A stretch of DNA of 33,845 nt from Rhodocyclaceae bacterium. Lineage in GTDB: Bacteria; Pseudomonadota; Gammaproteobacteria; Burkholderiales; Rhodocyclaceae. Numbering within the stretch: the stretch's first letter is position 1; each line of letters begins with the position of its first letter. Of this stretch, positions 12,018 to 30,642 are shown piece by piece. The notes beneath the pieces are model-generated. The model ran no database searches and was not told where the DNA came from. It saw only the letters and a program-made list of their open reading frames with translations. Location: positions 1 to 33,845 of the forward strand of contig JAOAHQ010000021.1 in assembly GCA_026415155.1 (NCBI GenBank), in the 5' to 3' direction. A program made the translations under genes and the position numbers.

Positions 12018-14543
12018 ATGAGCGAACGGCGCACGGTTCCTTGGTATCGCTCGATCCGCTTCCGCCTCGTCGCCGCCGCGCTCGCAGTGCAGGCGATCGT
12101 CTTCGCCCTCTTGCTTGCCAACAGTTTCCGTCTCACGGGAGAACTGCTCGAAACGCAAACCCAGGCGCGGCTCGAACGGCTCAAAACGCTGCTCAATGCC
12201 TCGCTCGCCGGCCGGGTGTTCTTGCACGATCACGTCGAGATCGAGGCCATCCTCGACGAGCTCCTCGCCGCTCAGCACGGTGAGATTTCCTACGTCGTCG
12301 TGCTCGACCGGCAGGACATTCCCCTCGTCACGCGCGGGCCGGTCGAGCTGCGCCGTCTTCCCAAGGCCGACCTTGCCGTGACAGACGCGCTCGACGATGG
12401 CATCTTCGATGCCTATGTGCCGCTTTCGATCGCAGGCACGCCCGTCGGCACGGTGCGCTACGGCCTGTCGCTGAAAAGTCTCGTCAAAGCCCGCGACGAG
12501 CTGATCGAGCAAGGCCTCTGGATCGCGCTGGCGGGTTTGGCGGCGAGCTTGCTGCTGCTAGCCATCGCCGGCTTTCTCATCACACGCCACATTCCCCATC
12601 TGCTTGCCGTGACCAACCGCATCGTCGCCGGCGAATACGGCTCGCGCGTGCCGTTGGGCGGCGTGCGCGACGAAATCGGCCTTTTGGCCGAAAACTTCAA
12701 CGCCATGTCGCAGAGCATCGCCGAGCGCATCCAGTCCTTGAAGGAGCGCGAAGCGCAATTGCGCGAGAGCGAAGCGCGTTACCGGGAGCTTGCCGCAAAC
12801 CTCGAAAGCGCCGTCGCGGCGCGCACCGTGGAACTCGCCACCGCGCGCGATGCCGCCGAGGCGGCCAACCGCGCCAAAAGCGAGTTTCTCGCCAATATGA
12901 GCCACGAGATCAGGACGCCGCTCAATGCCATCCTCGGCCTCACCTACCTCATGCGCGGCGAGGCGACGCCCGCGCAAGCCGAGCGTCTCGCGAAGATCGA
13001 TGCCGCCGGCAAGCATTTGCTCTCGATCATCAACGACATCCTCGATCTGTCGAAGATCGAGGCCGGCAAGCTCAAGCTCGAACATAGCGATTTCGCGCTC
13101 TCGGCCGTGCTCGACCAGGTGCGCTCGCTGATCGGCGAAGCCGCGCGCGAGAAGGGGCTCGCGATCCTCATCGAACCGGACGATGTGCCGCTTTGGCTCA
13201 AGGGCGACGTGCTGCGGCTCAGGCAGGCGCTGCTCAACTACGCGAGCAATGCGGTCAAATTCACCGAGCGCGGCAAGATTACGCTCGCGGCGCGCCTGCT
13301 TGAAGAAAAAGGCAACGATCTCCTCGTGCGCTTCGAGGTGCGCGATACCGGCATTGGCATCGACGCTGAGAAACTCGCGGGTCTCTTTCAGCCCTTCACC
13401 CAGGCCGATGCCTCGACGACCCGCCAGCATGGCGGTACCGGCCTGGGGCTCGCGATCACGCGGCGGCTCGCGGAACTCATGGGCGGCATGGTCGGCGCCG
13501 AGAGCGCGCCCGGCCAAGGCAGCACCTTCTGGTTTACCGCCAAACTCCAGCGCGGCCACGGCATCATGCCGCAGCCGCTGCCGCCGGCAAGCGACAACGA
13601 AGCGCGGCTGCGCGCACGGGCGGCCGGCAGGCGGGTGCTGCTTGCCGAAGACAATCTCGTCAACCGCGAAGTGGCGTTGGAACTCTTGCATGGCGTGGGG
13701 CTCGCCGTCGATGTCGCGGCCGATGGCCTCGAGGCGATCGAGCGCGCCCGGCAACAGCGTTACGATCTGGTGCTCATGGACGTGCAGATGCCAAACCTCG
13801 ATGGCCTCGATGCGACGCGGGCGATCCGGCAATTGCCGGGCTGGCGCGAGGTGCCGATCCTCGCGATGACGGCCAATGCCTTCGAGGAAGATCGCTTCGC
13901 GGCGAAGCGCTCGGGCATGAACGACCACATCGCCAAGCCAGTCGACCCCGACACGCTCTATGCCACCTTGCTCGAATGGCTTCCGGCGCAGAACGAAAAC
14001 GCCGCTCGCGAAGAGCACGAGGTGCCTTCCGGCACCGAGGCTTCTCCAAAAGTCGGCGCTGGCGGAAATCAAGACGTCCTGCCGGGCGCCGACTCAATAG
14101 GGCGAGTCGGCGCTGGCGGGACGGCCCCCCTTCCTGCCGCGGCGCCTAAGCTTGCGCCGGCCATGGCAGAGGAGGCCGCCTTGCGCGCGCGGCTTGCCGC
14201 GATCGCGGGGCTAGAGGTCCAGATGGGCCTTGCCCAGGTGCGCGGGCGGTGGCCGAGCTACGGCCGGCTGCTCGCGCTCTTCGTCGAGGCGCACGGGGGC
14301 GATGCCGAGCGGATCGCCGAGTTGATCGAGGCCGGCCAGCTTGCCGAGGCAGAGCGCGTGGCGCACGCACTCAAAGGCGCCGCCGGCAGCCTCGGCGCGA
14401 CCGCCGTGCAAGCCGCGGCCGAACGCCTCGATGCCGCGCTGAAGCTTGGCGATGGGCGAGCCGCCCGCACGGCCTTGCCGGCGTTGCGCGAGGAGCTCAG
14501 CCGGCTCGTCGGCGACTTGCAGCGCGCGCTTTTCGCGGCGTGA
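12018..14543 (+). CDS. Hybrid sensor histidine kinase (HAMP-HisKA-HATPase-REC-HPt)
   Basis: 841 residues. TM1 is at about 18-38 and TM2 at about 173-196, flanking a periplasmic domain of about 130 residues. HAMP and a coiled coil follow, then HisKA with phospho-accepting His296 in SHEIRTPLN, HATPase_c ([15 protein letters not shown]), REC with Asp588 in LVLMDVQMP, and a C-terminal HPt with His783 in [13 protein letters not shown]. The chain can thus run a full His-Asp-His relay to a separate response regulator that is not in this window. Between REC and HPt, residues 679-703 are encoded by a 74-bp interspersed repeat. It probably senses the state of the PhnD-like protein encoded just upstream. 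Its 3' end lies 5 bp from the convergent nasA. Confidence 0.95.
14052..14125 (+). repeat. Composite interspersed repeat, copy 1 (in the histidine kinase gene, sense)
   Basis: A unit GTCGGCGCTGGCG... at 14052, its palindromic partner GCGCCGAC at 14086-14093, and a second full unit GTCGGCGCTGGCGGGACGGC at 14106-14125. The copy at 17040-17113 has exactly the same length and spacing. Translated in frame it gives two VGAGG peptides joined by a PGADS linker, in the REC-HPt connector where extra residues should be tolerated. Confidence 0.85.
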
Positions 14544-14548
14544 TGGGA

Positions 14549-17329
14549 TCACGCGCTGTGCGGCGCGGTAAGCAAACGCCGAATCTCGGGCAGGCAGGAG
14601 CCGCAGGACGTGCCGCACTTGAGCTTTTGCTGTAACGCGGGAAGATCGGCGCCGGCGGCGATTTCCTGGCGGATCGCCGCTTCGCTGACATCGAGGCAGT
14701 TGCAGATCACCTTGCGCGGCGCGGCGGCCGCGACGGGGGGCTCGGCGCGCGGGGCGAAGAGCCAGCGGCGCAGCGCCTCGATGGGCAGCCCTTCGAGCAT
14801 CGCCGCGCGCAGCCACGCGGCGGCGGCATCTTCGCCGGCGAGCAACACCCCCGTGAGCCGCTCGTCCTCGATCTTGGCGAGCTTGATCACGTTGTGAGCC
14901 GGATCGCGGTAGGCAAGACAAGCGGCCTCCGGCAAATCGAGCGAGCGGGCGATCTCTTCGATGCGCTCGGGCGGCAGCGGCTTGGCACTCGCCACGCGCA
15001 GGGCGGCCAACGGCCGCTCGCGGCCGTCGAGGGTGAGCGCGGCGTAATCGAGGCTGCCCAGAAGCGGCGCGAGGCGCTCGCGCCATTGCAGCACCTTTTC
15101 GTGCCCATCGGCGGCCAGCCCCGCCGTGCGCAGCGCAGTAAGCCGCCAGGGCAGCATGGCGGGCTCGATGCGGATCGCCGCATGCTTGAGCTCGGGCTGC
15201 TTCGAGACGGGGTCGCAGGCGGACGTCGTCAGCGCATTGACGCCATCGTGGGCGAGGCTGCGCCGCCCCCAGTGCATCGCGAGAAAGGCCTGGCCGGGTT
15301 TGACCTGGTCGCTCGCCGCCACCGGCAGCACGATCTCACCGCGCGGGCTCTGGAGGCGCACGAGTTCGCCTTCCGTCAAGCCGCGCCGGGAAAGATCGGC
15401 GGCGGAAAGCTCGAGGCAGGGCTCCGGCGCGTGGGCAAACAGGCGCGGGATGCGGCCGGTGCGGCTCATCCCATGCCACTGGTCGCGCAGCCGGCCAGTG
15501 AGGAGATGAAAAGGCCGGCGCGCGTCGGTGGCCTCGGCGGTGAGCTGCGTGTCGATGGCGATGAACCTCGCCTTGCCATCGGGGTGGGCGAAGCGATGAT
15601 CGACAAAGAGGCGCGCCGAGCCTTGGCCCGCCCGCAGCGGCCATTGCACCGGCCCAAGCCGGTCGAGCGCTTCGTGCGAGAGCCCGCCGATGTCGAGATC
15701 GCGCCCGCGGGTGGTGGCGACGTATTCGGCATAGACTTCGGCGGGGCTCGCGAAAGGGAACAGCCGGCGTGCCGTCTCGCCAGCGCCGAGTTTCGCGCCG
15801 AGGGCGAGCGCGAAGTCGCGCGCGATCTGCCAATCCGGCCGGGCCTGGCCGGGCGGCGGCACGGCGGCGCGCACGCGCGAGATGCGCCGCTCGGAGTTGG
15901 TCACGGTGCCTTCCTTTTCGCCCCAGGTGGCGGCCGGCAGCAAGAGGTCGGCAAAGGCCGCGGTTTCGGTGTCCATCCAGGCCTCTTGCACGACGACGAA
16001 TTCGGCCCGGGTGAGCGCCGCTTTCACCTTGGCGAGGTCGGGCAGCGACTGGGCGGGATTGGTGCAGGCGATCCAGATTGCCTTGATCGTGCCTGCCGCG
16101 AGCGCTTCGAACATCTCCACCGCCGTCTTGCCCGGCGCCTCGGGCAACGCTGGAATGCCCCAAAGCCGAGCGAGTTCCGCGCGCTCGGCGGGGTCGTTGA
16201 GATTGCGATGCCCGGGCAGGAGGTTCGCCATCGTGCCGGTCTCGCGCCCGCCCATCGCATTGGGCTGGCCGGTGAGCGAAAACGGCCCCATGCCGGGCTG
16301 GCCGATCTTGCCGGTGGCCAGATGCAGGTGGATCAGCGCCGCGCCGTTCGCGGTGCCGTGGATCGACTGGTTGAGCCCCTGGCACCAGAAGGAAAGGGGC
16401 GCCTTGGCCTGTCCGAACAGCCGCGCCGCGGCGACGATCTCCTCCGCTTTCAGGCCGCAGGCGGCGGCCGCCGCGCCGGGCGTGAATTCGGCGAGCTGTT
16501 TTTTTAGCGACTCGAAGCCGCTCGTGTGCGCAGCGATGAAGGCTTCGTCGATCAGGTCTTCCCAGATGAGCACATACAGCATCGCCGAATAGAGCAAGGC
16601 GTCACTGCCCGGCGCGATGGCAAGGTGGAGATCGGCGGCGGCCGCGGTATCGGTGCGGCGCGGGTCGACGACGATCAGCTTGAGATCGGGATTTTTTTCT
16701 TTGGCCGCCTCGATGCGGCGAAAGACGATCGGATGGGCGTAAGCCGTGTTCGAGCCGGCGATCAGGATCAAGTCGGCGAGCTCGATGTCCTCGTAACAGC
16801 AGGGCACGGCATCCGAACCGAGGGTGGCCTTGTAGGCGGCCACCGCCGAGGACATGCACAGCCGCGAGTTCGAGTCGATGTTGTTCGTGCCGACGAGCGC
16901 GCGGGCGAGCTTGTTGAAGACGTAGTAGTCCTCGGTGAGCAATTGCCCCGAGACGTAGAAGGCGACCGCGTCCGCGCCGTGCGTCTCGATGATGTCGGCG
17001 AAGCGCTCGGCAGCCACATCGAGCGCCTGCTCCCACGAAGTCGGCGCTGGCGAAACCGAGGGCGTCCCGCCGGGCGCCGACTCGTTGCGGAAAGTCGGCA
17101 CTGGCAAGACGGCACGGTTTTCACGCAACAGCGGCACGGTCGCCCGTCCGGTGGCGACACTCGCGAGGTGCAGGGTGCTGCCCTTGGCGCACAGCCGGCC
17201 GAAATTGGCCGGATGATCCGGGTCGCCCACGACATCGACGATGCGCCGGCCATCCGAGCGGATCAGCACGCCGCAGCCGGTGCCGCAATAGCCGCAGACG
17301 CTGCGCGTCTCCCTCAGATGGCGATCCAC
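14549..17329 (-). CDS. nasA: Assimilatory nitrate reductase, molybdopterin catalytic subunit
   Basis: 926 residues. It reduces nitrate to nitrite in the cytoplasm. The N-terminal [4Fe-4S] site is CGYCGTGCGVLI...LCAKG. The molybdopterin domain (SRLCMSSAVAAYK, NTAYAHPI, WCQGLNQSIHGTANG) and dinucleotide-binding domain (HLLTGRLRDQWHGMSRTGR) follow. The last 55 residues form a BFD-like [2Fe-2S] domain (CNCLDVSEAAI...CGTSCGSCLPEI), as in Klebsiella-type NasA. The start is a GTG at 17329 that overlaps the end of nirD by 16 nt; no ATG precedes the Fe-S motif. Residues 73-97 are encoded by an antisense interspersed repeat. No diaphorase subunit is present, so the electron donor is unclear; NirB is one possibility. 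Confidence 0.95.
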   Translation of the reverse strand: MDRHLRETRSVCGYCGTGCGVLIRSDGRRIVDVVGDPDHPANFGRLCAKGSTLHLASVATGRATVPLLRENRAVLPVPTFRNESAPGGTPSVSPAPTSWEQALDVAAERFADIIETHGADAVAFYVSGQLLTEDYYVFNKLARALVGTNNIDSNSRLCMSSAVAAYKATLGSDAVPCCYEDIELADLILIAGSNTAYAHPIVFRRIEAAKEKNPDLKLIVVDPRRTDTAAAADLHLAIAPGSDALLYSAMLYVLIWEDLIDEAFIAAHTSGFESLKKQLAEFTPGAAAAACGLKAEEIVAAARLFGQAKAPLSFWCQGLNQSIHGTANGAALIHLHLATGKIGQPGMGPFSLTGQPNAMGGRETGTMANLLPGHRNLNDPAERAELARLWGIPALPEAPGKTAVEMFEALAAGTIKAIWIACTNPAQSLPDLAKVKAALTRAEFVVVQEAWMDTETAAFADLLLPAATWGEKEGTVTNSERRISRVRAAVPPPGQARPDWQIARDFALALGAKLGAGETARRLFPFASPAEVYAEYVATTRGRDLDIGGLSHEALDRLGPVQWPLRAGQGSARLFVDHRFAHPDGKARFIAIDTQLTAEATDARRPFHLLTGRLRDQWHGMSRTGRIPRLFAHAPEPCLELSAADLSRRGLTEGELVRLQSPRGEIVLPVAASDQVKPGQAFLAMHWGRRSLAHDGVNALTTSACDPVSKQPELKHAAIRIEPAMLPWRLTALRTAGLAADGHEKVLQWRERLAPLLGSLDYAALTLDGRERPLAALRVASAKPLPPERIEEIARSLDLPEAACLAYRDPAHNVIKLAKIEDERLTGVLLAGEDAAAAWLRAAMLEGLPIEALRRWLFAPRAEPPVAAAAPRKVICNCLDVSEAAIRQEIAAGADLPALQQKLKCGTSCGSCLPEIRRLLTAPHSA
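17040..17113 (+). repeat. Composite interspersed repeat, copy 2 (in nasA, antisense)
   Basis: Same structure as the copy at 14052-14125: unit at 17040, palindromic partner GCGCCGAC at 17074-17081, and a second unit GTCGGCACTGGCAAGACGGC at 17094-17113. It lies opposite to the direction of nasA. The host protein therefore reads PVPTFRNESAPGGTPSVSPA where other NasA proteins go directly from the early Fe-S domain to the SWEQALD segment. Confidence 0.85.
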
Positions 17330-17622
17330 ACCCGCCCGCCTTCGACTTTGGTGGGATACGGCTTCGCGCAGCCTTTGTCCGGCGCGACGGCTTCGCCGTT
17401 CTCAAATTGGATCTTCCAGGCATGGAGCGGGCAGGTGACCACCTTGCCCGCCACCAGGCCCTGCGAGAGCGGCCCGCCCTTGTGCGGGCACTTGTCGCGC
17501 AGCGCGAAGACTTCGTCCTCGGCGGTGCGAAACAGCGCGATCTCGCCCTGCGGGGTTTTCACGACGCGGCTGCCCAGGCGCGGAATCTCCTCGAGCGCGC
17601 AGACGGCTTTCCATTCGCTCAT
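17314..17622 (-). CDS. nirD: Nitrite reductase small subunit, Rieske type
   Basis: 102 residues, the usual NirD size. It contains a full Rieske [2Fe-2S] ligand set, CPHKGG...CPLHAW, which NirD of enteric bacteria lacks; electron transfer to NirB is therefore plausible here. The ATG at 17622 lies 1 nt after the nirB stop codon (17624-17626), and the gene overlaps the nasA start, so the three are translationally linked. It is soluble, with no signal peptide. Confidence 0.95.
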   Translation of the reverse strand: MSEWKAVCALEEIPRLGSRVVKTPQGEIALFRTAEDEVFALRDKCPHKGGPLSQGLVAGKVVTCPLHAWKIQFENGEAVAPDKGCAKPYPTKVEGGRVWIAI

Positions 17623-17623
17623 G

Positions 17624-20062
17624 CTAGGCCACCTCCAGCGCGACGTATTCGGGCGAGCGGTTCTTGACCGCCTGGGCCCAGGGGTCTTCATAGCCTTGTA
17701 AGGCGTAGAGCAGGCGTTCGTAAAGCGCCTTGCGCCGCGCGGCGTCCTCGACCACCTGCGCCTTGACGTAATCGAGCCCCACGCGGGCGACGAAGTGGCA
17801 GGTGCGCTCGAGATAAAAACCTTCCTCGCGGTAAAGCTGCAGGAAGGCGCCCGTGTATTCCTTGACCTCCTCGTCGCTTCTCACCTTGCAGAGGAACTGC
17901 GCGATCTCGGTCTTGATGCCGCCATTGCCGGCGACGTAGAGCTCGTAGCCGGAATCGACGCCGATCACGCCGACGTCCTTGATGCCGGCCTCGGCGCAGT
18001 TGCGCGGGCAGCCGGAGACGGCGAGCTTCACCTTGTGCGGCGCCCACATGCCGAAGAGCATCTTTTCGAGCTTCACACCCATCGCCATCGACTTTTGCGT
18101 GCCGAAGCGGCAATGCTCGGCGCCGACGCAGGTCTTGACGGTGCGGATACTCTTGCCATAGGCATGGCCCGAGACGAGGCCGGCGCGGCCCAAGTCGGCC
18201 CACACCGCCGGCAGCTTCTCCTTCGGAATGCCGAGGAGATCGATTCTCGCGCCGCCGGTCATCTTGACGGTCGGCACCTGGTATTTCTCGGCGACATCGG
18301 CGATGGCGCGCAGCTCGGCCGGCGTCGTGAGCCCTCCCCACATCCTCGGCACGACGGAGAAGGTGCCGTCCTTCTGGATGTTGGCATGCGCGCGCTCATT
18401 GATGAAGCGCGATTGCGGATCGTCCTCGGCCTCGTGCGGCCAGGTCGAGATCAGGTAGTAGTTGAGGGCCGGGCGGCAGGTCGCGCAGCCGTTGGGCGTC
18501 TTCCAGCCCAGCGCTTGCATGACGGCGGGGATCGAGAGCAGCTTCTGCTCGCGGATCGCCTGGCGCACGGCGCCGTGGGAAAGCTCGGTGCAGCCGCAGA
18601 CGGGCTTTTCTTTCGTCTCGGCCGGCTGGTAGGCGCCGCCCACCGTCGAAGCGAGGATCTGCTCGACGAGCCCGGTGCAGGAGCCGCAGGAGGAGGAAGC
18701 CTTGGTGTGCTTCCTCACCTCCTCGAGCGTAAACAGGCCATGGGTCTTGATCGCGCGGACGATGTCGCCCTTCTTGACGCCATTGCAGCCGCAGATCTCG
18801 GCGGAATCGGGCAGGGCGGCCGCATGGCTCTTGCCGGCATGGCCGGCATCGCCCAGATGATGCGGGCCGAACATCAGATGGTCGCGGATGGCGTGAATGT
18901 CCTGGCCGTCCTTGATGAGCTCGAAATACCACGCGCCATCGGCGGTGTCGCCATAGAGCACCGCGCCGGCGAGCCGCTGATCGCGCAGCACGAGCTTCTT
19001 ATAGACGCCGGCGGCCGGGTCGGAGAGCACGATCTCTTCCGTGCCCGCGCCGCCTTGGAATTCGCCAGCCGAGAACACGTCGATGCCGGTCACCTTGAGC
19101 TTGGTCGAGGTCACCGAGCCGGTGTAACGGCCGATGCCGAGCTGCGCCAGATGGTTGGCGCAGACCTTGGCCTGCTCGAAGAGCGGCGCGACGAGGCCGT
19201 ACGTGACGCCGCGGTGCTCGACGCATTCACCGACGGCGTAGATCTTCGGGTCGTAGGTCTGCAGCGTGTCATCGACGACGATGCCGCGGTTGCAGTGAAG
19301 TCCGGCGCTTTTGGCCAGTTCGATGTTCGGCCGGATGCCGATCGCCATGACGACGAGCTCGGCGGGGATCGCGCCGCCATCCTTGAAGCGCACCAGGCCG
19401 ACGCGGCCATGGGCGCCGGCTTCGAGCCGCTCGGTCTCTTTGCCGAGCAGGAATTTCAGGCCTTTCTTTTCGAGCGACTTTTGCAACAGATCGGCGGCGG
19501 TCTTGTCGAGCTGGCGCTCCATGATCCAGTCCGCAAGATGCACGACGGTGACCTCCATGCCCCGGAGCGCGAGGCCGTGGGCCGCTTCGAGGCCGAGCAG
19601 GCCGCCGCCGATCACGACCGCCTGCTGATGGCTTTTTGACGCCGCGATCATCGCCTCGGTATCGGCGATGTCGCGGTAGGCGATCACGCCCGGCAGCTCG
19701 TTGCCCGGGATCGGCAAGCGGATGGGCAGCGCGCCGGTGGCCAAGAGCAGCCGGTCGTAGGAGGCCCTGGTGCCATCCTCGGCGACGACCTCTTGGGCCT
19801 TTCTGTCGAGCTTCACGACCTTCTTGCCGGCATACAGCGTGATGCCGTGGTTTCGATACCAATCCCAGTCGTTGAGGACGATGTCGGAAAACTGCGCCTC
19901 ACCCGCGAGCACCGGCGAGAGCAGGATGCGGTTGTAGTTCGGGTGCGGCTCGGCGCCGAACACCGTGATCTCGTAGAGCTCGGGCGCGAGCTTCATGAGT
20001 TCTTCGAGGGTGCGGCAGCCGGCCATGCCGTTGCCGACCATCACCAGTTTCCGTTTCTTCAT
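17624..20062 (-). CDS. nirB: NAD(P)H-dependent nitrite reductase large subunit
   Basis: 812 residues. It reduces nitrite to ammonium with six electrons. In order: FAD/NAD domain (MVGNGMAGCRTLEEL, VVIGGGLLGLEAAHGLALRG), two BFD-type [2Fe-2S] modules (CGCNGVKKGDI...CGSCTG and CGCTELSHGAVRQAI...CATCRP), ferredoxin-like half domain, and siroheme/[4Fe-4S] site with ligands in TCVGAEHC and GCPRNC. The ATG at 20062 is preferred over the TTG one codon upstream because GGAG lies 6 nt before it. It follows nrtC by 11 nt. Siroheme synthase (cysG) is not in the window. Confidence 0.97.
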   Translation of the reverse strand: MKKRKLVMVGNGMAGCRTLEELMKLAPELYEITVFGAEPHPNYNRILLSPVLAGEAQFSDIVLNDWDWYRNHGITLYAGKKVVKLDRKAQEVVAEDGTRASYDRLLLATGALPIRLPIPGNELPGVIAYRDIADTEAMIAASKSHQQAVVIGGGLLGLEAAHGLALRGMEVTVVHLADWIMERQLDKTAADLLQKSLEKKGLKFLLGKETERLEAGAHGRVGLVRFKDGGAIPAELVVMAIGIRPNIELAKSAGLHCNRGIVVDDTLQTYDPKIYAVGECVEHRGVTYGLVAPLFEQAKVCANHLAQLGIGRYTGSVTSTKLKVTGIDVFSAGEFQGGAGTEEIVLSDPAAGVYKKLVLRDQRLAGAVLYGDTADGAWYFELIKDGQDIHAIRDHLMFGPHHLGDAGHAGKSHAAALPDSAEICGCNGVKKGDIVRAIKTHGLFTLEEVRKHTKASSSCGSCTGLVEQILASTVGGAYQPAETKEKPVCGCTELSHGAVRQAIREQKLLSIPAVMQALGWKTPNGCATCRPALNYYLISTWPHEAEDDPQSRFINERAHANIQKDGTFSVVPRMWGGLTTPAELRAIADVAEKYQVPTVKMTGGARIDLLGIPKEKLPAVWADLGRAGLVSGHAYGKSIRTVKTCVGAEHCRFGTQKSMAMGVKLEKMLFGMWAPHKVKLAVSGCPRNCAEAGIKDVGVIGVDSGYELYVAGNGGIKTEIAQFLCKVRSDEEVKEYTGAFLQLYREEGFYLERTCHFVARVGLDYVKAQVVEDAARRKALYERLLYALQGYEDPWAQAVKNRSPEYVALEVA

Positions 20063-20869: not shown

Positions 20870-21796
20870 TCAAGCCTCCGTATGCAGCCGGCGCGCGAGC
20901 GCCAGGAGCGTTTGTTCGAGAATCAGGCCGGTGAAGCCGATCACGAAAATGGCGATGATGATGTGCTCGACCTTGAGGTTGTTCCACTCATCCCACACCC
21001 AGAAGCCGATGCCGACGCCGCCGGTGAGCATCTCGGCGGCGACGATGACGAGCCACGCGGTGCCGATCGACAGGCGGATGCCAGTCAGCATGTAGGGCAA
21101 GACGCTCGGGAAGAGGATCTTGGTGACGATCTTCCATTCGGAGAGGTTGAGCACACGCGCGACGTTCAAGTAATCCTGCGGCACGCGCATCACGCCCTGG
21201 GCGGTGTTCATGATCATCGGCCAGATCGAGCAGATGAAGATCGTCCAGGTCGCGGCCGGATCGGCCTTCTTGAAGACCAAGAGGCCGATCGGCAGCCAGG
21301 CGAGCGGCGAGACAGGGCGCAACAGGCTGATGATCGGCCCGGCCATGCGCGAGAGCGTCGCGAAGCGGCCGAGCAAAAAGCCCAAGGGGATGCCGATCAG
21401 CGCGGCGATGCCGAAGCCGACGCCGACACGCGAGAGCGAGGAGAGGATGTTCCAGCCGATCCCCTGGTCGTTCGGCCCGTTGCGGTAGAACGGGTCGGAG
21501 AAGAGCTTCACGGCGGCCTCCCAGGTCTTGGCCGGCGTCGGCAGGCTGCCGCCCTTCATCGTCGCCAGATGCCAGACGAGGAGAAGCAGCAGGATGCCCA
21601 AGACGGGCGGGAGCGCCTGGGCGAAGAAGGCTCGCATCGCCGCGGCGTTCTGCTCGGTGCTGCTGGGGCCCGCGAGCTGCGAAGGCGGGGGCGGCGGCGG
21701 CACACGCAAGCCGGCCGGGGCGGGGTTGGTGCGGGCGGGCTGTGCCGTCTTGCCAGCGCCGACTTTCTCGAAGGCTTCCACGGTGATGGCAGTCAT
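20870..21796 (-). CDS. nrtB: Nitrate ABC transporter permease
   Basis: 308 residues, a BPD-type inner-membrane permease. It has about six hydrophobic helices (for example PPVLGILLLLLVWHL and the GVGFGIAALIGIPLGFLLG segment) and an EAA-loop region (LNLSEWKIVTKILFPSVLPYM). The ATG at 21796 is chosen because AAGGAG lies just upstream; the in-frame ATG at 21814 has none. The N-terminal 55 residues are unusual: residues 12-18 are the repeat-encoded VGAGKTA, and a proline-rich stretch (PPPPPPSQ) follows before the first helix. It is 24 nt downstream of nrtA. Confidence 0.93.
   Translation of the reverse strand: MTAITVEAFEKVGAGKTAQPARTNPAPAGLRVPPPPPPSQLAGPSSTEQNAAAMRAFFAQALPPVLGILLLLLVWHLATMKGGSLPTPAKTWEAAVKLFSDPFYRNGPNDQGIGWNILSSLSRVGVGFGIAALIGIPLGFLLGRFATLSRMAGPIISLLRPVSPLAWLPIGLLVFKKADPAATWTIFICSIWPMIMNTAQGVMRVPQDYLNVARVLNLSEWKIVTKILFPSVLPYMLTGIRLSIGTAWLVIVAAEMLTGGVGIGFWVWDEWNNLKVEHIIIAIFVIGFTGLILEQTLLALARRLHTEA
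21744..21763 (-). repeat. Interspersed repeat, single unit in nrtB (sense)
   Basis: The minus strand reads GTCGGCGCTGGCAAGACGGC, differing from the consensus unit at two positions. It is in phase with nrtB and encodes VGAGKTA at residues 12-18, preceded by K. It lies in an N-terminal extension outside the conserved permease fold. Confidence 0.75.
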
Positions 21797-23204: not shown

Positions 23205-23281
23205 GACATTTGGGGAGGAGGGCGTTTTGCCCCGGGGCGAGCAGCGAGCAGCACTTCCGTCGTGGCGAGTGCCTCTGCAAG

Positions 23282-23301
23282 GTCGGCGCAGGCGGGACGG
23301 C
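23282..23301 (+). repeat. Interspersed repeat, single unit upstream of nrtA
   Basis: GTCGGCGCAGGCGGGACGGC, one base from the consensus unit. It is intergenic, lying between the sigma-54 promoter (23189-23204) and the NtrC-like sites (23305-23352). It shows that the repeat is a DNA element and not only a protein motif. Confidence 0.75.
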
Positions 23302-23321: not shown

Positions 23322-23335
23322 AAAGCGGTGCCGGA

Positions 23336-23920: not shown

Positions 23921-23983
23921 GATTGGCATGCTGCAACAACTGCGCCAGAGGACTATGCACCCGTATGTTGCCCAATACTTTCG

Positions 23984-23999: not shown

Positions 24000-24020
24000 T
24001 AAAATAATGTCTAGGGAATT

Positions 24021-24056
24021 GAAAAACTCCCCGCGCGGCCCAGTATCAGCGCGCGC
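24021..24056 (-). terminator. Possible terminator at the end of the mltG-ankyrin operon
   Basis: On the minus strand a GC-rich region starting at the ankyrin stop codon can fold GCGCGC against GCGCGG. It runs through GGGGAG into TTTTT (24026-24022). The stem is short and includes the stop codon, so support is modest. Confidence 0.35.
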
Positions 24057-24681
24057 CAACCCGCTCGAGAAATTCGGCGATTTGGCTGTGGCTCGCTTTT
24101 TTCGCCATTTCGATTGCGCTGCCCTCGACGGGATCACGCACGCCAAGATCGGCCTGGGCGCCGACGAGGAGCCGCACGACCTCGAAATGCCCACGCTTGG
24201 CGGCGAGCATCAACGCCGTCTGGCCATTGGGAGCTTTCAGATTCACATCGGCTCCGGCGGCGATGAGGAGCGCCGCCACCTCGGTGCGCCCCTCGAAGGC
24301 GGCGTAATGGAGCGCATTCCAGCCACCGTGGTTCAGCTCGGGTTTGCGTTCGAGCAGCAGGCGGACGATTTCCGTATGGCCATGCAGCGCGGCGAGCATC
24401 AGCGCCGTGTCGCCATAGCGGTTGCGCCGCTGCACTGAGGCGCGGTTTTCGAGCAAGAAGCGGACGAGGTCGAGATTGCCATTCCGCGCGGCGATCATGA
24501 GCAGCGTCGTGCCTTGCGGGTCGGCGGTATTGACGTCGAGACCGCGGCGCAGCAGGCCGATGACGGTTTCGCTGTCCTTCATCTCGGCCGCATGCAGGAT
24601 GTCTTCATAGGCGCCGGCTTGGGCGGTGAGCGAGAGGCTGGCAAAGAGCGCAAAAATGCTTAGATAACGGTTTAACTTCAC
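24046..24681 (-). CDS. Exported ankyrin-repeat protein
   Basis: 211 residues. MKLNRYLSIFALFASLSLTAQAG is a Sec signal peptide, and five ankyrin repeats fill the rest (for example PQGTTLLMIAARNGNLDLVRFLLE, NGQTALMLAAKRGHFEVVRLL). Ankyrin repeats mediate protein-protein contacts; the partner is unknown and the expected location is the periplasm. The start is a GTG at 24681 overlapping the tatD stop codon by 4 nt (GTGA); no ATG would preserve the signal peptide. It is the last gene of the mltG-tmk-holB-tatD unit. Confidence 0.88.
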   Translation of the reverse strand: MKLNRYLSIFALFASLSLTAQAGAYEDILHAAEMKDSETVIGLLRRGLDVNTADPQGTTLLMIAARNGNLDLVRFLLENRASVQRRNRYGDTALMLAALHGHTEIVRLLLERKPELNHGGWNALHYAAFEGRTEVAALLIAAGADVNLKAPNGQTALMLAAKRGHFEVVRLLVGAQADLGVRDPVEGSAIEMAKKASHSQIAEFLERVGAR

Positions 24682-25457
24682 TGCTTAGACGCCTTGAATA
24701 AATTGAAGAAATTGTTGGTGGTCGCTTGGGCGATCTCTTCCAGCGGCTGCTCGCGCAGCCGGGCGATTTCTTCGGCGACGTGGCGCACCCAGGCGGGCTG
24801 ATTGGTCTTGCCGCGATGCGGCACCGGCGCGAGATAGGGCGCGTCGGTCTCAATGAGGAGCCGGTCAAGCGGCACGGCTTTCGCGACTTCCTTGAGCGCG
24901 GCGGCGTTCTTGAAGGTGACGATGCCCGAAAAAGAAATGTAAAAGCCCAGTTCGAGCGCTCTTTGAGCGACTTCGTGAGTTTCCGTAAAGCAGTGAAAGA
25001 CGCCGCCGACCTCGTTCGCGCCCTCTTCCTCGAGGATGCGCAAGGTGTCGACGGCAGCGGCGCGCGTGTGGATGATCAAGGGCTTGCCGCAGGCGCGGGC
25101 GGCGCGGATGTGAGTGCGAAAGCGCTCGCGCTGCCATTCGAGATCGCCCTTCAAGCGAAAGTAATCGAGGCCAGTCTCGCCGATCGCGACGACCTTGGGG
25201 TCTTGGGCTAGCGTGACGAGGGTCTCGATGTCCGGCTCCTGCGCTAGCGCTTCGGTATCCGGATGCACGCCGACCGCGGCGAACAGCCGCCAGTCTTCGC
25301 GTACGATGTCAAGCATGGCCGGAAAGCGTTCGAGCGTGACACCGGCGCAAAGCGCCCAGCCGACGCCCTGCTTTTCCATCTCGGCAAGCACGCCGGGGAG
25401 CTGTGCCTTGAGTTCAGGAAAATCGAGATGACAATGCGAATCGACGAACGGGGTCAT
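24678..25457 (-). CDS. tatD: TatD-family metal-dependent hydrolase (DNase)
   Basis: 259 residues, normal TatD length. Metal-binding motifs are in order: SHCHLDF near the N-terminus, GETGLDY, IIHTRAA, FHCFTE and ETDAPYLAP. TatD proteins are two-metal nucleases acting on DNA ends; family members like this one (YcfH-type) are usually next to holB. The ATG at 25457 overlaps the holB stop codon (ATGA). Confidence 0.93.
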   Translation of the reverse strand: MTPFVDSHCHLDFPELKAQLPGVLAEMEKQGVGWALCAGVTLERFPAMLDIVREDWRLFAAVGVHPDTEALAQEPDIETLVTLAQDPKVVAIGETGLDYFRLKGDLEWQRERFRTHIRAARACGKPLIIHTRAAAVDTLRILEEEGANEVGGVFHCFTETHEVAQRALELGFYISFSGIVTFKNAAALKEVAKAVPLDRLLIETDAPYLAPVPHRGKTNQPAWVRHVAEEIARLREQPLEEIAQATTNNFFNLFKASKQ

Positions 25458-26479
25458 GGGGCAAGCGGAGAAAAGGCGCGCACGCAGAGGTCTTCGAGGA
25501 AAAGGCGCGGGTTGAGCGGATGGTTCGCAAGGCCGCGCAGCGTGTTGAGCTGGCGTTGGACCTGGATCAAGGCCGGCAGGCTCGCGCGTTTTGCCAGGCT
25601 TTGCAAGGCGTCCGCCTGAGCCGGCAGATAACGCGGCGATGCACCAATGGCGCACAAGGCGAGATCAAAGAGCCATTTTTGCACGGCAATCACCAGCTCT
25701 TCCATGCCCAGGGTAGATTCGGCCTTGACGAGATTCTCCCAGCGGCCGGCGAGAGCGAGTGGTTCTTGCGGTTTCATGAGGTCTTGAATGACCGCTTCGA
25801 GCGCCTTCAGGCGGCCGGCGCGCTCGGCTTCGGCAACCGCCAGCGGCGCGTCGCCGAAAAACGGCAGCCAGCGCGCTCCTTTGGCAAGCTTCTGCTCGGC
25901 GAGCCAATTCCGCGCCGCTTCGGCCTGGGGGCGGGAAAACATGATGCGCCGGCAGCGGCTCAGGATCGTCGGCAAGAGCCGTCTCCACTGGTGAGAAACG
26001 ATTAAAAAATAAAATGATGGTGACGGTTCTTCAAGTATTTTGAGAAGAGCGTTGGCCGTCACGGCATTCATGGCCTCGGCCGGATCGATGAGGCAGACGC
26101 GCGCTCCGCTCCGATGGGCACCGACGAAAAAGAAGGCTTCGATCTCGCGCACCTGCTGGATGCGGATCTGCTTGCTCGCCTTCTTCTTTTCGCCTTCGGG
26201 AGTGCCAGCGCCCTCTTCCTCTTCGGACGCTTCGGGCTGTAGCAGGCGAAAGTCGGGATGCTGGCCGCTCGCCCACATGAGACAGGCGTCGCATTCGCCG
26301 CAAGCGGCTTCAAACGCCTCGCGCGGCCGCTCGCAGAGGAGGCGCGCGGCGAGCGCTTCGGCGAGCTCGCGTTTGCCGAGGCCCGGCGGGCCGGCGAAGA
26401 GCAAGGCATGAGGCAGCTGAGCACCCGGCCTGGTCAGCCGCCGCCAGATTTCGAGATTCAATATTTTTGGTTCAAACAC
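25454..26479 (-). CDS. holB: DNA polymerase III delta' subunit
   Basis: About 341 residues. It is part of the clamp loader that opens the beta clamp. Visible: [22 protein letters not shown] (P-loop-like), a zinc module [36 protein letters not shown], and SRC in TILSRCRRI. An Glu/Lys-rich insert ([18 protein letters not shown]) separates the zinc module from sensor sequences. No ATG is available; a GTG at 26479 overlaps the tmk stop and has GAAGAAA upstream, while a TTG at 26497 would add six residues. Neither is certain. tatD follows with a 4-nt overlap and no pilZ between. Confidence 0.9.
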
Positions 26480-27080
26480 TTGAGATGATTTCTTCAAGTT
26501 GTTTCTGAATTTCTTCTATGCTGCAGCTTGCATCGATGATGCGGATTCTTGCCGGATGGGCCGCGGCGCGGGCGAGATAGGCGGCGCGCACCCGGGCGTG
26601 GAAATCGAGCGTTTCCCGCTCGAAGCGATCGAGCGCGCGCGCTGCCCCTTGCATGCGCTGGGCGGCGAGTTCAATGGGGAGATCAAAAAGCAGCGTCAGA
26701 TCGGGCGCGAAATCGCCCTGCACCCAGCGCTCGAGGAGGGCGAGCTTCTCATCGGCAAGTCCCCGGCCGCCGCCCTGGTAGGCAAAGCTCGCATCCGTGA
26801 AGCGGTCGCAAACGACCCACTCGCCGCGCTCGAGCGCCGGCCAGATGACGCGCTCGAGATGCTCGCGCCGCGCCGCGAACATGAGGAGCGCCTCGGTCTC
26901 GAGATGCATCGGTTCTGAAAGCAAGAGCTCACGCAGCCGCTCGCTCAAGGGGGTGCCGCCCGGCTCGCGCGTTTGGATCACCGTTTTGCCTTGCGCGCGC
27001 AAGTATTCGACGAGCCAGGCAAGATGCGTGCTCTTGCCAGCCCCATCGATGCCTTCGAGCGTGATGAAGCGCCCTGCCAT
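26472..27080 (-). CDS. tmk: Thymidylate kinase
   Basis: 202 residues. It phosphorylates dTMP to dTDP. The P-loop is GIDGAGKST at residues 10-18; [19 protein letters not shown] (the DRF/DRY substrate motif) and the lid GGGRGL follow as in the family. The ATG at 27080 comes directly after the mltG stop codon (27081-27083) with no gap, and the 3' end overlaps the start of holB. Confidence 0.96.
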
Positions 27081-28085
27081 CTATCCCCTGCCCCGCTGAT
27101 ATTTGTCGACGGCGCGATTATGCTCTTCGAGCGTGCGCGAGAAGACGCTCGTGCCATCGCCCCGTGCGACAAAGTAAAGGTATTCGGTGGAAGGCGGATT
27201 GAGCACCGCCTCGATCGCGGCCATGCCGGGAAGCGAGATCGGCGTCGGCGGCAAGCCGGGCCGTGTATAGGTGTTGTAAGGCGTGTCGGTGAGGAGATCG
27301 ATCTTGCGCAGGTTGCCGTCGAATTTTTCGCCCAAGCCATAGATGACCGTCGGGTCGGTCTGCAGCGGCATGCCTTTCTTGAGCCGATTGACGAAAACTG
27401 AAGCGATGAGGCCCCGCTCGGCCGCCGCGCCGGTTTCCTTTTCGACGATCGAGGCGAGGATCAGCGCCTCGTCGATGCTCTTATACGGTGTGCTGGGATC
27501 GCGCCTTTCCCAGGCGCGCGAGAGGCGTTTTTCCATCGCCCGGTAAGCGCGCCGGTAGAGGTCGAGGTCGGAACTCTGGCGCGCGAACAGATAGGTGTCG
27601 GGAAAGAAGCGCCCTTCCGGGTGTGAGACGCTCGCGCCGATGCGCTGAAGGATTTCCCGGTCGGTGAGGCCCGCCGTGTCGTGGCGCAGATCGGGATGGG
27701 CGTCGATTGCGCGGCGCATGTCGCGGAAAGTCTTGCCTTCGACGATGACGAGGGCCGATTGCGTCACGTCGCCGGCGGTGAGCTTCTCGAGAAGCTGCCA
27801 GGCCGTCGTCCCAGCGCCGACTTCGTAGGCGCCGGCCTGAATCGACCGGTCGCGGCCAGTCAAGCGCCCCAGCAAGGCGAATTGCCAGGGAATGATGCCG
27901 ATGCCGGCCTCGCGCATCGTCTGCGCCGCCGCCTTGAGACCGAGACCCGGGCGGATGTCGAAGTCGATGCGCGGCTCGCGCAAGGGCACTTCGCTCGCAG
28001 CGACCCAGGCGAGCCAGCCGGCGAGCGCCAAGGCGCCCAGGCAGCCCAGGCCAATGAAAACGAGAAGGCGTTTGATCGCACGCAT
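27081..28085 (-). CDS. mltG: Endolytic murein transglycosylase MltG
   Basis: 334 residues. It is anchored in the inner membrane by one N-terminal helix (LLVFIGLGCLGALALAGWLAWV) with the catalytic part in the periplasm, where it cuts nascent glycan strands. The YceG signature includes the catalytic Glu in ILASIVEKETG, plus LQTDPTVIYG, YNTYTRPGLPPTPIS and YLYFVARGDG. Residues 89-95 (VGAGTTA) coincide with a diverged copy of the interspersed repeat unit, in a place where the family also has a similar loop. It is the first gene of the minus-strand unit and is divergent from ygfZ across 49 bp. Confidence 0.95.
   Translation of the reverse strand: MRAIKRLLVFIGLGCLGALALAGWLAWVAASEVPLREPRIDFDIRPGLGLKAAAQTMREAGIGIIPWQFALLGRLTGRDRSIQAGAYEVGAGTTAWQLLEKLTAGDVTQSALVIVEGKTFRDMRRAIDAHPDLRHDTAGLTDREILQRIGASVSHPEGRFFPDTYLFARQSSDLDLYRRAYRAMEKRLSRAWERRDPSTPYKSIDEALILASIVEKETGAAAERGLIASVFVNRLKKGMPLQTDPTVIYGLGEKFDGNLRKIDLLTDTPYNTYTRPGLPPTPISLPGMAAIEAVLNPPSTEYLYFVARGDGTSVFSRTLEEHNRAVDKYQRGRG
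27802..27821 (-). repeat. Doubtful diverged repeat unit in mltG (sense)
   Basis: The minus strand reads GTCGGCGCTGGGACGACGGC, 17 of 20 identical to the unit, with all three differences adjacent. It is in the same codon phase as the other sense copies and gives VGAGTTA. MltG proteins commonly have a similar 'YxVxxGTT' loop here, so chance resemblance is quite possible. Confidence 0.35.
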
Positions 28086-28134
28086 GGTCGAAGCCGGCTA
28101 TGATAACCGCTCCTCGAAACACTCCTTGTCTGCC

Positions 28135-29022
28135 ATGACCGAGTCCGCCTGCCACGTCCTCCTCACCGACCATGGCCTGATCCGCGCCAGCGGCGAAGAT
28201 GCCACAAGCTTCCTCCACAACTTGCTCACCAATGACATCAAGCACTTGAACGAGGGCGAAGCCCGCCACGCCGGGCTTTGCACGCCGAAAGGCCGGCTCA
28301 TCGCCACCTTCCTCGTCTGGCGCGAAGGCAATGATTACCTCCTGATGCTCTCGGCCGAAATCCTGCCGGGCATCCTCAAAAAGCTTTCGATGTATGTGCT
28401 AAGGAGCAAGGTGAAACTCACCGACGCGAGCCAGGAGCGCCGGCTCGTCGGCGTGCTCGGCGGGGCGCTGGGCCCCGCCGAGCCGATGCGCACTTCGCCT
28501 TGGGGGGGCGGCAGTGCGATCCGTCTCGATCCCCACCGCCTCGTCCTCGCGCTGCCGGCCGACGCGCCCCTGCCCGCCGAGCTGCCGCCGGCGGCGGAGC
28601 TTTCCGCCTGGCATCTCGCCGAAATTCGCGCCGGCATGCCCCGCATCGTCGCGGCAACCCAGGAAGCCTTCGTGCCGCAGATGGTCAATTATGAACTTCC
28701 CGCCGTCGGCGGCGTGAGCTTCCAGAAGGGGTGCTATCCCGGCCAGGAAATCGTCGCGCGCAGCCAATACCTCGGCAAGGTCAAGCGGCGCATGTATCGC
28801 GCGCGCTTCGATTCCCCTGTCGCGCCAGGCATGGAGATCTTCACGCCTGAGGCGGGCGAGCAGCATTGCGGCGCGATCGTGCTGGCCGCGCCCTCGCCCG
28901 AAGGCGGCCACGAGGCGCTCCTCGTCGTGCAAAGCTCGGGCGCCGAGGCGGGCGAAATCCATGTCGGCTCGCCAAACGGCCCGCGCGCGGCGTTACTGCC
29001 CCTGCCCTATTCCCTCGACTGA
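28135..29022 (+). CDS. ygfZ: YgfZ/GcvT-domain folate-binding protein for Fe-S cluster assembly
   Basis: 295 residues. YgfZ is a tetrahydrofolate-dependent factor helping assembly or repair of certain Fe-S enzymes. The diagnostic motif KGCYPGQE (Cys200) is intact, and the N-terminal FLHNLLTNDIKHL and C-terminal GcvT-like barrel are present. The ATG at 28135 matches the family start; the frame is open further upstream but overlaps mltG antisense. TATGAT at 28099-28104 may be a -10 box, without a clear -35. The next gene starts 4 nt after its stop. Confidence 0.93.
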   Translation: MTESACHVLLTDHGLIRASGEDATSFLHNLLTNDIKHLNEGEARHAGLCTPKGRLIATFLVWREGNDYLLMLSAEILPGILKKLSMYVLRSKVKLTDASQERRLVGVLGGALGPAEPMRTSPWGGGSAIRLDPHRLVLALPADAPLPAELPPAAELSAWHLAEIRAGMPRIVAATQEAFVPQMVNYELPAVGGVSFQKGCYPGQEIVARSQYLGKVKRRMYRARFDSPVAPGMEIFTPEAGEQHCGAIVLAAPSPEGGHEALLVVQSSGAEAGEIHVGSPNGPRAALLPLPYSLD

Positions 29023-29026
29023 AATC

Positions 29027-29884
29027 GTGCGCTTCACCGTCCGCCAATTCCGCGCCTGGCCGCACAAAAAAATCACGCTGCTTGGCATGTCGGGCGTGGG
29101 CAAGACCTGGCTGGCCTCGATGCTCAGACGCCACGACTGGTTCCACTACTCGGCCGACTACCGCATCGGCAAGCGTTATCTCGACGAGCCGATCCTCGAC
29201 CTCATCAAGCAGCAGGCGATGCAGGTGCCTTTCTTGCGCGAGCTCTTGCGGCGCGACTGGATCGACATCAAGAACAACATCAAGATCGACGACTTGGGCC
29301 CCGTGTTGACCTTCGTCGGCAAGCTCGGCAACCCTGCCCTGGGGGGCTTGCTGCTCGAGGAGTTTTCGCGCCGTCAGGCGATGTATCGCGCAGCCGAGAT
29401 CGCCGCCATGCACGATGTGCCCGCTTTCGTGAGAAAGGCGCAGGAAATCTACGGCTATGCCCATTTCGTCAATGATGTCGGCGGCAGCCTTTGTGAGCTC
29501 GAGGAGCCGGCCGTCATCGACCTTCTGGTCGAGCACACGCTGATCCTCTACATCCAGGTCACGACGCCGGAAGAGGAAGCCGAGCTGATCCGGCGCGCGC
29601 AGTCCGACCCCAAGCCGCTTTATTTCCGGCCGGCCTTCCTCGCCGAACAGCTGCCGAAATATCTCGCCGAGCGGCAGCTCTCCGACATCCGCGAAGCCGA
29701 TCCCGACGACTTCACGCGCTGGATCTTCCCGCATCTGTTTCATGCGCGCATGCCGCGCTATGAAGCGATCGCGCGTCCTCATGGCTATACGGTGACCTCG
29801 GCCGAAGTCGCGGCGCTGCGCGACGAGCGGGATTTCCTCGCCCTCGTCGAGGCGGCGATCGCGCGCACGCCTTCATGTGCCTGA
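29027..29884 (+). CDS. P-loop ATPase/kinase-like protein of unknown function
   Basis: 285 residues from a GTG at 29027, 4 nt after ygfZ. The Walker A motif GMSGVGKT is at residues 20-27, right after a short beta strand (KKITLLG), as in small nucleoside-kinase-type P-loop proteins. Other landmarks are HYSADYRIGKRYLDE, HFVNDVGGSLCELEEP (a plausible Walker B/acidic region) and VEHTLILYIQVTTPEEE. No membrane segment is seen. I recognise it only as a P-loop NTPase. Its stop overlaps the start of the NRDE gene by 10 nt, so the two are co-translated. Confidence 0.8.
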   Translation: MRFTVRQFRAWPHKKITLLGMSGVGKTWLASMLRRHDWFHYSADYRIGKRYLDEPILDLIKQQAMQVPFLRELLRRDWIDIKNNIKIDDLGPVLTFVGKLGNPALGGLLLEEFSRRQAMYRAAEIAAMHDVPAFVRKAQEIYGYAHFVNDVGGSLCELEEPAVIDLLVEHTLILYIQVTTPEEEAELIRRAQSDPKPLYFRPAFLAEQLPKYLAERQLSDIREADPDDFTRWIFPHLFHARMPRYEAIARPHGYTVTSAEVAALRDERDFLALVEAAIARTPSCA

Positions 29885-30642
29885 TCCTCCTCGCCTGGCA
29901 GGCTCACCCGGATTTTCCGCTCGTGGTGGCTGCCAATCGCGACGAATTCTTTGCCCGGCCGACGGCGCCCGCCGCGTTTTGGCCAGAGGCGCCTGAGGTG
30001 CTCGCCGGCCGGGATCTCGCCGCAGGGGGCAGCTGGCTCGGCATCACACGCCGCGGGCGCTTCGCGGCGCTGACCAACTTTCGCGATCCGTATCGGCAGC
30101 GGCCCGAGGCTCCCTCGCGCGGCAGGCTGGTAGCCGATTTTCTGACGACAGACGTCGCGATCGAGGATTTTCTCGATTCGCTCGATGCGGCCGCCTACAA
30201 CGGCTTCAACCTCTTGTTGGGCGATGGAAAGCGCCTCTTCGCCTTCAGCAATGTCACGCTGCGCCGCCATGAGCTCGCACCGGGCGTCTATGGGCTTTCG
30301 AACGCCCTGCTCGACACGCCCTGGCCCAAGGTCGGCCGTGCCAAGGCGGCGCTCGCGGCGGCGCTCGATGCGCTGCCGGACGAAGCCGCGCTGTGGCGGC
30401 TGCTGGCCGACGACACCGTCTTTCCAGATGAAGCGCTGCCGAGCACGGGCGTCTCGCTCGAATGGGAGCGGCTCCTTTCTGCCGCCTTCGTCCGCGGCCG
30501 CGATTACGGCACGCGCGCCTCGACCGTGCTGAAAGTCGGCGCTGGCGGGACGGCCCCTTACGTCACCTTCGACGAGCAGACCTGGCTGCCTGGGGGCCAG
30601 GCCGGCGCGCGGCGACGTTTTCGCTTTTCGGTCACCCGATGA
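29875..30642 (+). CDS. NRDE (TANGO2-like) family protein
   Basis: 255 residues. It begins MCLILLAWQAHPDFPLVVAANRDEFF, the defining start of the family: Cys2 would become the N-terminal residue after Met removal, as in Ntn-type hydrolases, and NRDE gives the name. GGSWLGITRRGRFAALTNFRDP and GLSNALLDTPWPKV also match. The biochemical activity of bacterial members is not settled; haem or lipid handling has been discussed for eukaryotic TANGO2. Residues 221-227 are the repeat-encoded VGAGGTA, replacing part of the usual penultimate beta strand. The last 11 bp overlap the convergent YkuD gene. Confidence 0.9.
   Translation: MCLILLAWQAHPDFPLVVAANRDEFFARPTAPAAFWPEAPEVLAGRDLAAGGSWLGITRRGRFAALTNFRDPYRQRPEAPSRGRLVADFLTTDVAIEDFLDSLDAAAYNGFNLLLGDGKRLFAFSNVTLRRHELAPGVYGLSNALLDTPWPKVGRAKAALAAALDALPDEAALWRLLADDTVFPDEALPSTGVSLEWERLLSAAFVRGRDYGTRASTVLKVGAGGTAPYVTFDEQTWLPGGQAGARRRFRFSVTR
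30535..30554 (+). repeat. Interspersed repeat, single unit in the NRDE gene (sense)
   Basis: An exact match to the consensus GTCGGCGCTGGCGGGACGGC, preceded by AAA as in the kinase copy. It is in phase with the gene and encodes VGAGGTA (residues 221-227) preceded by K, in the C-terminal part just after YGTRASTVL. Confidence 0.85.

Follow-up and report, generated by a model that had tools for sequence, protein, structure and literature searches.

A 23-bp word repeated through Rhodocyclaceae genomes as a probable DNA uptake sequence

Results

The window analyzed here, the whole 33,845-nucleotide stretch at positions 1 to 33,845 of contig JAOAHQ010000021.1 of a Rhodocyclaceae bacterium (assembly GCA_026415155.1), carries a short dispersed repeat that a preliminary description of the same DNA recorded as a 20-bp unit. 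This unit is part of a 23-bp word, AAAGTCGGCGCTGGCGGGACGGC, which occurs hundreds of times in the genome and is probably a DNA uptake sequence, by which cells would recognize DNA of their own kind during natural transformation. Within the window the 20-bp unit is matched eight times with at most three mismatches, against an expectation of 0.09. The copies of the word, referred to below as tags, and the 54-bp modules that precede two of them lie at the following positions:

3167..3189, plus strand: tag with one mismatch in the 20-bp core, sense in purL, in the SALAGR frame (KSALAGR)
6882..6904, plus strand: weak, borderline tag with four mismatches, in a RelA/SpoT gene (KLGSGETA)
14052..14105, plus strand: 54-bp in-frame module of 18 residues, in a hybrid histidine kinase, within the linker separating the receiver and Hpt domains
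14103..14125, plus strand: tag with a perfect 20-bp core, directly after the module, in the VGAGGTA frame
15771..15793, minus strand: tag with two mismatches, sense in a nasA-type gene (KLGAGETA)
17040..17093, plus strand: 54-bp module, antisense to the nasA-type gene
17091..17113, plus strand: tag with three mismatches, antisense in nasA, an inherited tag into which the module has split
21744..21766, minus strand: tag with two mismatches, sense in an ABC permease gene, close to the N-terminal end (EKVGAGKTA)
23279..23301, plus strand: tag with one mismatch in the 20-bp core, intergenic
27802..27824, minus strand: tag with three mismatches, sense in mltG (EVGAGTTA)
30532..30554, plus strand: perfect tag, sense in an NRDE/TANGO2 gene (KVGAGGTA)

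The positions listed in the preliminary description do hold the unit, its 'partial' copies at 14052 and 17040 being divergent ones, and its placements are borne out: the copy at 23282 is intergenic, those at 17040 and 17094 are antisense in the nasA-type gene, and that at 21744-21763 is sense in the permease gene. Its list was incomplete, missing three copies with at most three mismatches, at 3170-3189 (+), 15771-15790 (-) and 27802-27821 (-), and the borderline copy at 6885-6904 (+, four mismatches).

The genome-wide search that it had proposed returned not few copies but 529 with at most three mismatches in the whole genome (G000; 2.38 Mb, 83.5% complete; other G-numbers denote the genomes compared with it), against three for a reversed-pattern control. 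They are split evenly between the strands, with 266 forward and 263 reverse (two and one for the control), and the word shares this over-representation with DNA uptake sequences. Detailed analysis of the copies was performed on a 434-kb sample of the genome, consisting of the window and 20 stretches of 20 kb, which holds 98 copies with at most three mismatches. Copies with zero, one, two, three and four mismatches number 17, 35, 24, 22 and 15, compared with 0, 0, 0, 1 and 6 for the reversed word; those with four mismatches are near the chance level.

A sequence logo of the 98 copies shows the information rising at three A's that precede the 20-bp unit and falling to at most 0.3 bit at the two bases past its end, then to near zero, and the flanks share no sequence further out than the word. 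The numbers of variants at positions 1 to 20 of the unit are 24, 1, 0, 0, 0, 0, 3, 4, 15, 10, 11, 2, 32, 33, 10, 1, 1, 0, 2 and 0; changes fall mainly at positions 1, 9-11 and 13-15, while TCGGC (2-6) and ACGGC (16-20) are almost invariant. This confinement to a few positions is unlike the random decay of a copied element, which would touch all positions. Neither of the two single copies tested forms a hairpin (z +0.27 and +0.34). The word is sharply bounded, with near-invariant ends and a variable middle, and is neither a palindrome nor a half-element.

Genes were called with our own codon model rather than taken from a curated annotation. On these calls the 98 copies comprise 37 sense, 25 antisense, 35 intergenic and one partial; only 6.5% of the 434 kb is non-coding, yet it holds 35 of the copies. 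The same excess is seen in G017, a relative with a complete genome: over 400 kb, of which 8.7% is non-coding, 24 of 79 copies are intergenic. As in known uptake sequences, the copies lie in both orientations, are spread genome-wide and are in excess outside genes. The preliminary description had the repeat entering genes in one fixed codon phase. This does not hold, the purL copy at 3170 being in another frame: the 37 sense copies fall 28, 0 and 9 in phases 0, 1 and 2, with phase 0 encoding VGAG(G/E/K)TA and phase 2 SALAGR, and those of G017 fall 20, 2 and 11. One codon phase is preferred without being obligatory.

Spacing of the copies is more even than chance, as it also is for the uptake sequences of Neisseriaceae (DNA uptake sequence, DUS) and Pasteurellaceae (uptake signal sequence, USS). 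The coefficient of variation of the distances is 0.61 in our genome, against 0.96±0.09 in simulations, and 0.68 in G017, against 0.99±0.11, with none of 2000 simulations as even as the observed spacing in either genome. Gaps below 1 kb are too few, at 6 against 18.9 expected and 3 against 14.2, respectively. No strand bias appears on either side of the GC-skew flip in the 400 kb of G017, indicating no replichore polarity there. A terminator scan (stem of at least 7 bp, loop of at least three bases, T run) fitted none of the 35 intergenic copies; one terminator-like pairing was seen by eye (contig C4, around 29982), with a two-base loop that falls outside the scan rule. The five longest tag-free stretches of our sample are ordinary-looking runs of genes, with nuo, sdh and thi genes recognizable by eye; no obvious islands were seen in them by eye, with no family search made, and they therefore provide no test of whether foreign DNA is tag-free.

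Inside genes, the word is conserved as DNA. We compared four-fold degenerate third bases in the word with those in 20-codon flanks, choosing copies in one genome and leaving the partner unconditioned. For copies chosen in our genome (n=11, G017 as partner), 39 of 49 third bases are identical in the tag and 146 of 262 in the flanks (p = 0.0015), with residue identities of 0.68 and 0.73; for copies chosen in G017 (n=13), the figures are 45 of 58 and 133 of 239 (p = 0.0026), with residue identities of 0.75 and 0.73. The two sets overlap at shared places, so that the pooled figure of 84/107 against 279/501 counts these twice, and a version conditioned on both genomes (35/40 against 79/148) is biased. 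What is conserved within genes is thus the DNA third bases, above the flanks, and not the residues. One sense, phase-2 pair, with the letters of the tag at 3167..3189, has the G017 tag at the exact homologous place. The preliminary description's preference for a DNA-level repeat over a protein motif stands, given the antisense and intergenic copies and the conserved third bases.

The origin of the copies was addressed by gap tests against orthologues, a method by which the USS of H. influenzae were reported not to be insertions (PMC1626085). At the mltG locus, 79 copies with at most three mismatches were collected from 21 genomes, an untagged orthologue being one with at least five mismatches; 16 copies outside genes or partial and 18 in genes with fewer than three orthologues were set aside, leaving 45. 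Among these, 39 align without gaps to half or more of their untagged orthologues, six do not, and three lie in segments with no counterpart in orthologues. The 283 individual comparisons divide into 194 gapless, 28 lacking 1-4 residues, 45 lacking 5-14 and 16 otherwise different. A second test, at nuoG, took 29 copies with at most two mismatches, seven of which had no gene with an orthologue; the remaining 22, which cover essentially two nuoG places and one elsewhere, gave 117 comparisons, with 47 gapless, 24 having at least five residues missing and 46 with other indels.

Comparison of our genome with G017 over 95 orthologue pairs covers 26 copies at 19 places: 16 copies (nine places) are shared, one is intermediate, and nine have an untagged partner, of which four are gapless, three lack 1-5 residues, one lacks at least six and one has extra residues. 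Orthologues thus often carry an identical peptide at the corresponding position, at nine of 19 places in these two genomes. The preliminary description would have taken this as the mark of an ancestral protein motif, but its cause is a DNA word that is inherited and maintained. In tatD, 13 of 20 orthologues have the tag with at most three mismatches, one has four mismatches, and the six untagged ones (6-9 mismatches) are nearly equal in length to the tagged, with AAAAATAGVTTIVVPA in G009 standing against a 16-residue stretch in G018. Among the window's own tags, that at 15771..15793 recurs with at most three mismatches in six of eight nasA-type orthologues and that at 27802..27824 in seven of 18 mltG orthologues; that at 30532..30554 is common to four of 15 NRDE/TANGO2 orthologues, the other 11 being untagged, and all aligned orthologues, tagged or not, have three residues fewer just past it. 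At nasA 17040, the sole orthologue without a tag (G016) does not differ in length from those that carry one. An origin by substitution, as in uptake sequences, is seen for most copies, not all, with NuoG mixed. On these alignments, most tags were built in place by substitution and small indels, at tolerant, indel-prone spots, and a minority lies in added segments.

The two 74-bp composites of the preliminary description exist, at 14052-14125 and 17040-17113, each consisting of the 54-bp module followed by a tag. They are 79% alike over 76 nt, and the module has inverted-repeat arms; the 14052 composite folds strongly (z -5.1), and the 17040 composite does not (z -0.6). Our genome holds nine module units at eight places, about six of which are in genes by open frames. 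Module units number 48 in G002, 17 in G004 and 61 in G017, and 0-2 in the other 26 of 30 genomes tested; more than two copies of the composite occur in only four of the 30, all of one genus. Tandem arrays have a period of mostly 54 bp, and of 57 bp in one G004 array.

Two genes allow the arrival of the module to be judged. In nasA (17040-17113), seven of eight orthologues hold one undivided antisense tag with 1-3 mismatches, the eighth having eight mismatches, and our genome has exactly 18 extra residues inside the tag that are absent from all eight. In tatD, our genome again carries an insert at an inherited tag, absent from 20 orthologues. These alignments indicate that in both testable genes the module was inserted in frame into an existing tag and that the tag remains. 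For the kinase module at 14052, no clear orthologue across the linker was found among too many paralogues. The preliminary description's idea of a palindrome that adds an in-frame peptide accordingly fits the 54-bp module in nasA and tatD and fails for the 20-bp unit, which forms no hairpin and is mostly built in place. Its further suggestion, that single units are half-elements left by deletion, is contradicted by the hundreds of units per genome that occur also where the composite was not found, mostly built in place; because they are abundant without the composite and are mostly built at sites already present in orthologues, the 20-bp units are the primary feature.

Related expansions were noted elsewhere. 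In G004 (L337) the tatD tag that holds the 54-bp module in our genome is occupied by another tandem module, likewise in frame, of about 81 bp per unit and with the peptide VGAGPSQADVPPVGGSEPGLRAWGANE. The NRDE gene of G007 (L167) has a 36-residue in-frame expansion (2 x 18) between two tag copies, although no match to the 54-bp module core was detected in the G007 genome. Tags in general may be prone to tandem growth in frame.

Several genera of the family carry the word. In the same genus, 17 of 18 other genomes have 149-658 copies with at most two mismatches, and G006 has none. Of 18 genomes drawn from other genera of the family, G019 has 480 copies, G026 has 606 and the remaining 16 have 0-5, as do 24 genomes from elsewhere in the order. 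A count over 395 family genomes, our own included, gives 56 with at least 20 copies, in seven genera; the complete genome G017 has 408. The word varies between lineages: G026 has the form AAAAGTCGG[T/C]GCTGGCGGGACGGCG, with T (62%) at position 6 and G (92%) at position 21, G019 has G (87%) at position 21, and G086 has AAAAGTCGACGCTGG.G..ACGGC, with A at position 5. The G086 form emerged without prior input as the top over-represented word, with 16 copies of its 10-mer in 95.6 kb. As in uptake sequences with lineage dialects, G019, G026 and G086 thus differ from our genome, with one genome per genus sampled. No comparable word was found in 122 kb of G006, and no dialect word in 100 kb of G064, though the latter has 26 copies genome-wide.

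Two genomes deserve separate mention. G006, of the same genus and without copies, has a distant MltG (61% identity) and is useful as an untagged outgroup. G097, the one genome sampled of genus g80, has 17 copies with at most two mismatches, and the ten listed sit on five contigs (C66, C104 and C557 among them); these copies are possibly foreign contigs in a metagenome-assembled genome or a recent import.

Discussion

The abundance and homogeneity of the word, the in-place origin of most copies, its dialects and its excess outside genes match those of uptake sequences, and for this reason we consider it probable that the word is a DNA uptake sequence. Sequence tags for self-specific uptake are known from species of two families (PMC5031613), and we read the Rhodocyclaceae word as a third family of such tags, beside those of Neisseriaceae and Pasteurellaceae. 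It shares with DUS and USS hundreds of short non-palindromic copies, in excess outside genes and present also inside them, an origin by substitution, and dialects (PMC3630211, PMC1626085, PMC1939737, PMC5031613). DUS also have dialects, with some Neisseriaceae genomes lacking an obvious DUS (PMC3630211), and a gradual origin of uptake sequences by point mutation has been argued (PMC1939737). The system differs in its Rhodocyclaceae host, in that some copies lie in added segments, and in that inverted pairs, frequently adopted by DUS (PMC3630211), number none of 35 by scan and one by eye. By its logo the word matches neither the neisserial DUS 10-mer GCCGTCTGAA nor a dialect in the part of the published list consulted. 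The literature within our reach, subscription journals being outside its scope, yielded no paper that joins uptake sequences with Rhodocyclaceae or gives the letters GTCGGCGCTGGC.

The reverse complement of the word begins GCCGTC(T/C), like the neisserial DUS 10-mer (PMC3630211). The agreement over six or seven bases may be accidental, or it may reflect receptors of common descent.

Receptor binding, preferential uptake and drive are the inferred parts of this interpretation. The word would be bound by a receptor at the cell surface, probably one of the minor type IV pilins, and tagged fragments would be imported through the type IV pilus and ComEC and integrate into the chromosome by recombination; in Pasteurellaceae, the minor pilin ComN/PpdA has been proposed as the receptor (PMC12616744). 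Under uptake bias and recombination, point mutations would complete near-matches to full tags, which would then be retained, with tags building up in tolerant places such as gene ends, spacers and protein linkers, and the frame preference would likewise be driven by tolerance. As a second layer, the 54-bp palindromic module inserts in frame in existing tags, as seen in two genes, and leaves a tag behind.

Of 20 tag-rich genomes, 19 have ComEC and 18 have pilins of the ComP_DUS family, including one in our genome (G000:C25:1900-2121); a first look had found a pilin signature at 15 of 30 loci. As a marker of the tag, the ComP_DUS pilin is uninformative, being present in 34 of 37 family genomes.

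Several observations weigh against an uptake sequence. ComEC, present in 28 of 29 family genomes, and pilins of the ComP_DUS family occur just as often in relatives that lack the tag, among them G006, so that no genetic link of the tag to competence genes is yet apparent. At 23 bp the word is longer than the 10-12-mer DUS and the 9-bp USS core, and its density of about one per 4-5 kb is lower than the classical densities. By eye, the 45 mltG-locus copies represent about eight places, five built in place (one in an L,D-transpeptidase, one in MltG and three in the NRDE gene) and three in segments absent from orthologues. Of the 22 copies tested at nuoG, ten are mostly gapless and 12 are not; the NuoG indels are largely of 1-2 residues, but gaps of at least five residues occur at one site in three genomes. 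Only four of the nine untagged partners in the comparison with G017 are strictly gapless, and the places compared there partly overlap the mltG and nuoG loci. Finally, the third-base test returned p = 0.023 for one of six small decoy words as well.

The main alternative is an uncharacterized chromosomal binding protein, such as a nucleoid organizer or a segregation, repair or recombination factor, with chromosome occupancy rather than uptake keeping the word. Position-specific constraint, even spacing, conservation at the DNA level and dialects would be equally expected of it. Segregation and recombination sites of the FtsK or Chi type (KOPS, Chi) show replichore polarity, however, and on its lack in the 400 kb of G017 an oriented chromosome signal was rejected. 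Within the sampled contigs the copies are also not limited to a single region, and cellular DNA-binding factors seldom have long, near-perfect sites by the hundred. Regulatory sites are relaxed compared with the strong consensus of uptake sequences (PMC1626085). We regard such a protein as an unlikely explanation, albeit one to be taken seriously.

That the unit is a mobile element or its remnant, copied to new places, is improbable. The forms considered are a repetitive extragenic palindromic (REP) element with its REP-associated tyrosine transposase (RAYT), a miniature inverted-repeat transposable element and a Rickettsia-type palindromic element. A mobile origin would account for the high copy number, for the copies in added segments (3/45 copies and 3 of about 8 places at the mltG locus, the NuoG site in three genomes, and 1/9 in the comparison with G017) and for the true insertion of the 54-bp module; against it, most tags are gapless or differ by indels of 1-3 residues from untagged orthologues, their flanks share no sequence, and the single unit is not palindromic. 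REP elements resemble the unit in being short, dispersed and partly extragenic, and differ in being palindromic. The RAYT-type transposase suggested by the preliminary description (Y1_Tnp) was not detected in 13 of 20 tag-rich genomes tested, among them the complete G017 with its 408 copies and our own genome (83.5% complete), and on this basis we rejected REP/RAYT. That unrelated proteins have conserved VGAG(G/K/E)TA as an ancestral motif is a reading to which we attach practically no credence: the commonest sense phase does yield the peptide (28 of 37 sense copies), but 61 of the 98 copies are not sense copies at all, being antisense, intergenic or partial, nine of 37 sense copies are in another phase, and third bases rather than residues are conserved, and the motif was rejected on these grounds.

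The module itself is closer to Rickettsia palindromic elements, which are longer than 54 bp. Like them it has inverted-repeat arms, is inserted in genes in frame, has a length that is a multiple of three and adds a peptide; set side by side by description, it differs in inserting inside a pre-existing tag and in forming tandem arrays. The single 23-bp units are unlike these elements and are not inserted palindromes. We hold it possible, though doubtful, that a third self-specific uptake family with genus dialects is here exploited by a selfish 54-bp module riding on the preferential uptake of tagged DNA. If so, a module that inserts inside tags would represent a novel mode of coexistence of an element with transformation.

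If the word is an uptake sequence, a third tag family with about four distinguishable word forms would provide an independent test of why tags evolve, and the receptor could be sought as a pilin that should co-vary with dialect, as proposed for ComN/PpdA (PMC12616744). Part of an environmental group abundant in wastewater (PMC7054561) would then exchange DNA selectively with its own kind, and the word would supply a tag for genetic tools in Rhodocyclaceae.

The window also contains a second, unrelated dispersed repeat (CAGATTGTCCATT / AATGGACAATCTG), present as an inverted pair at 10950-10975 and 11141-11166; its 10-mer AATGGACAAT has 19 copies in 400 kb of our genome, against 0.12 expected.

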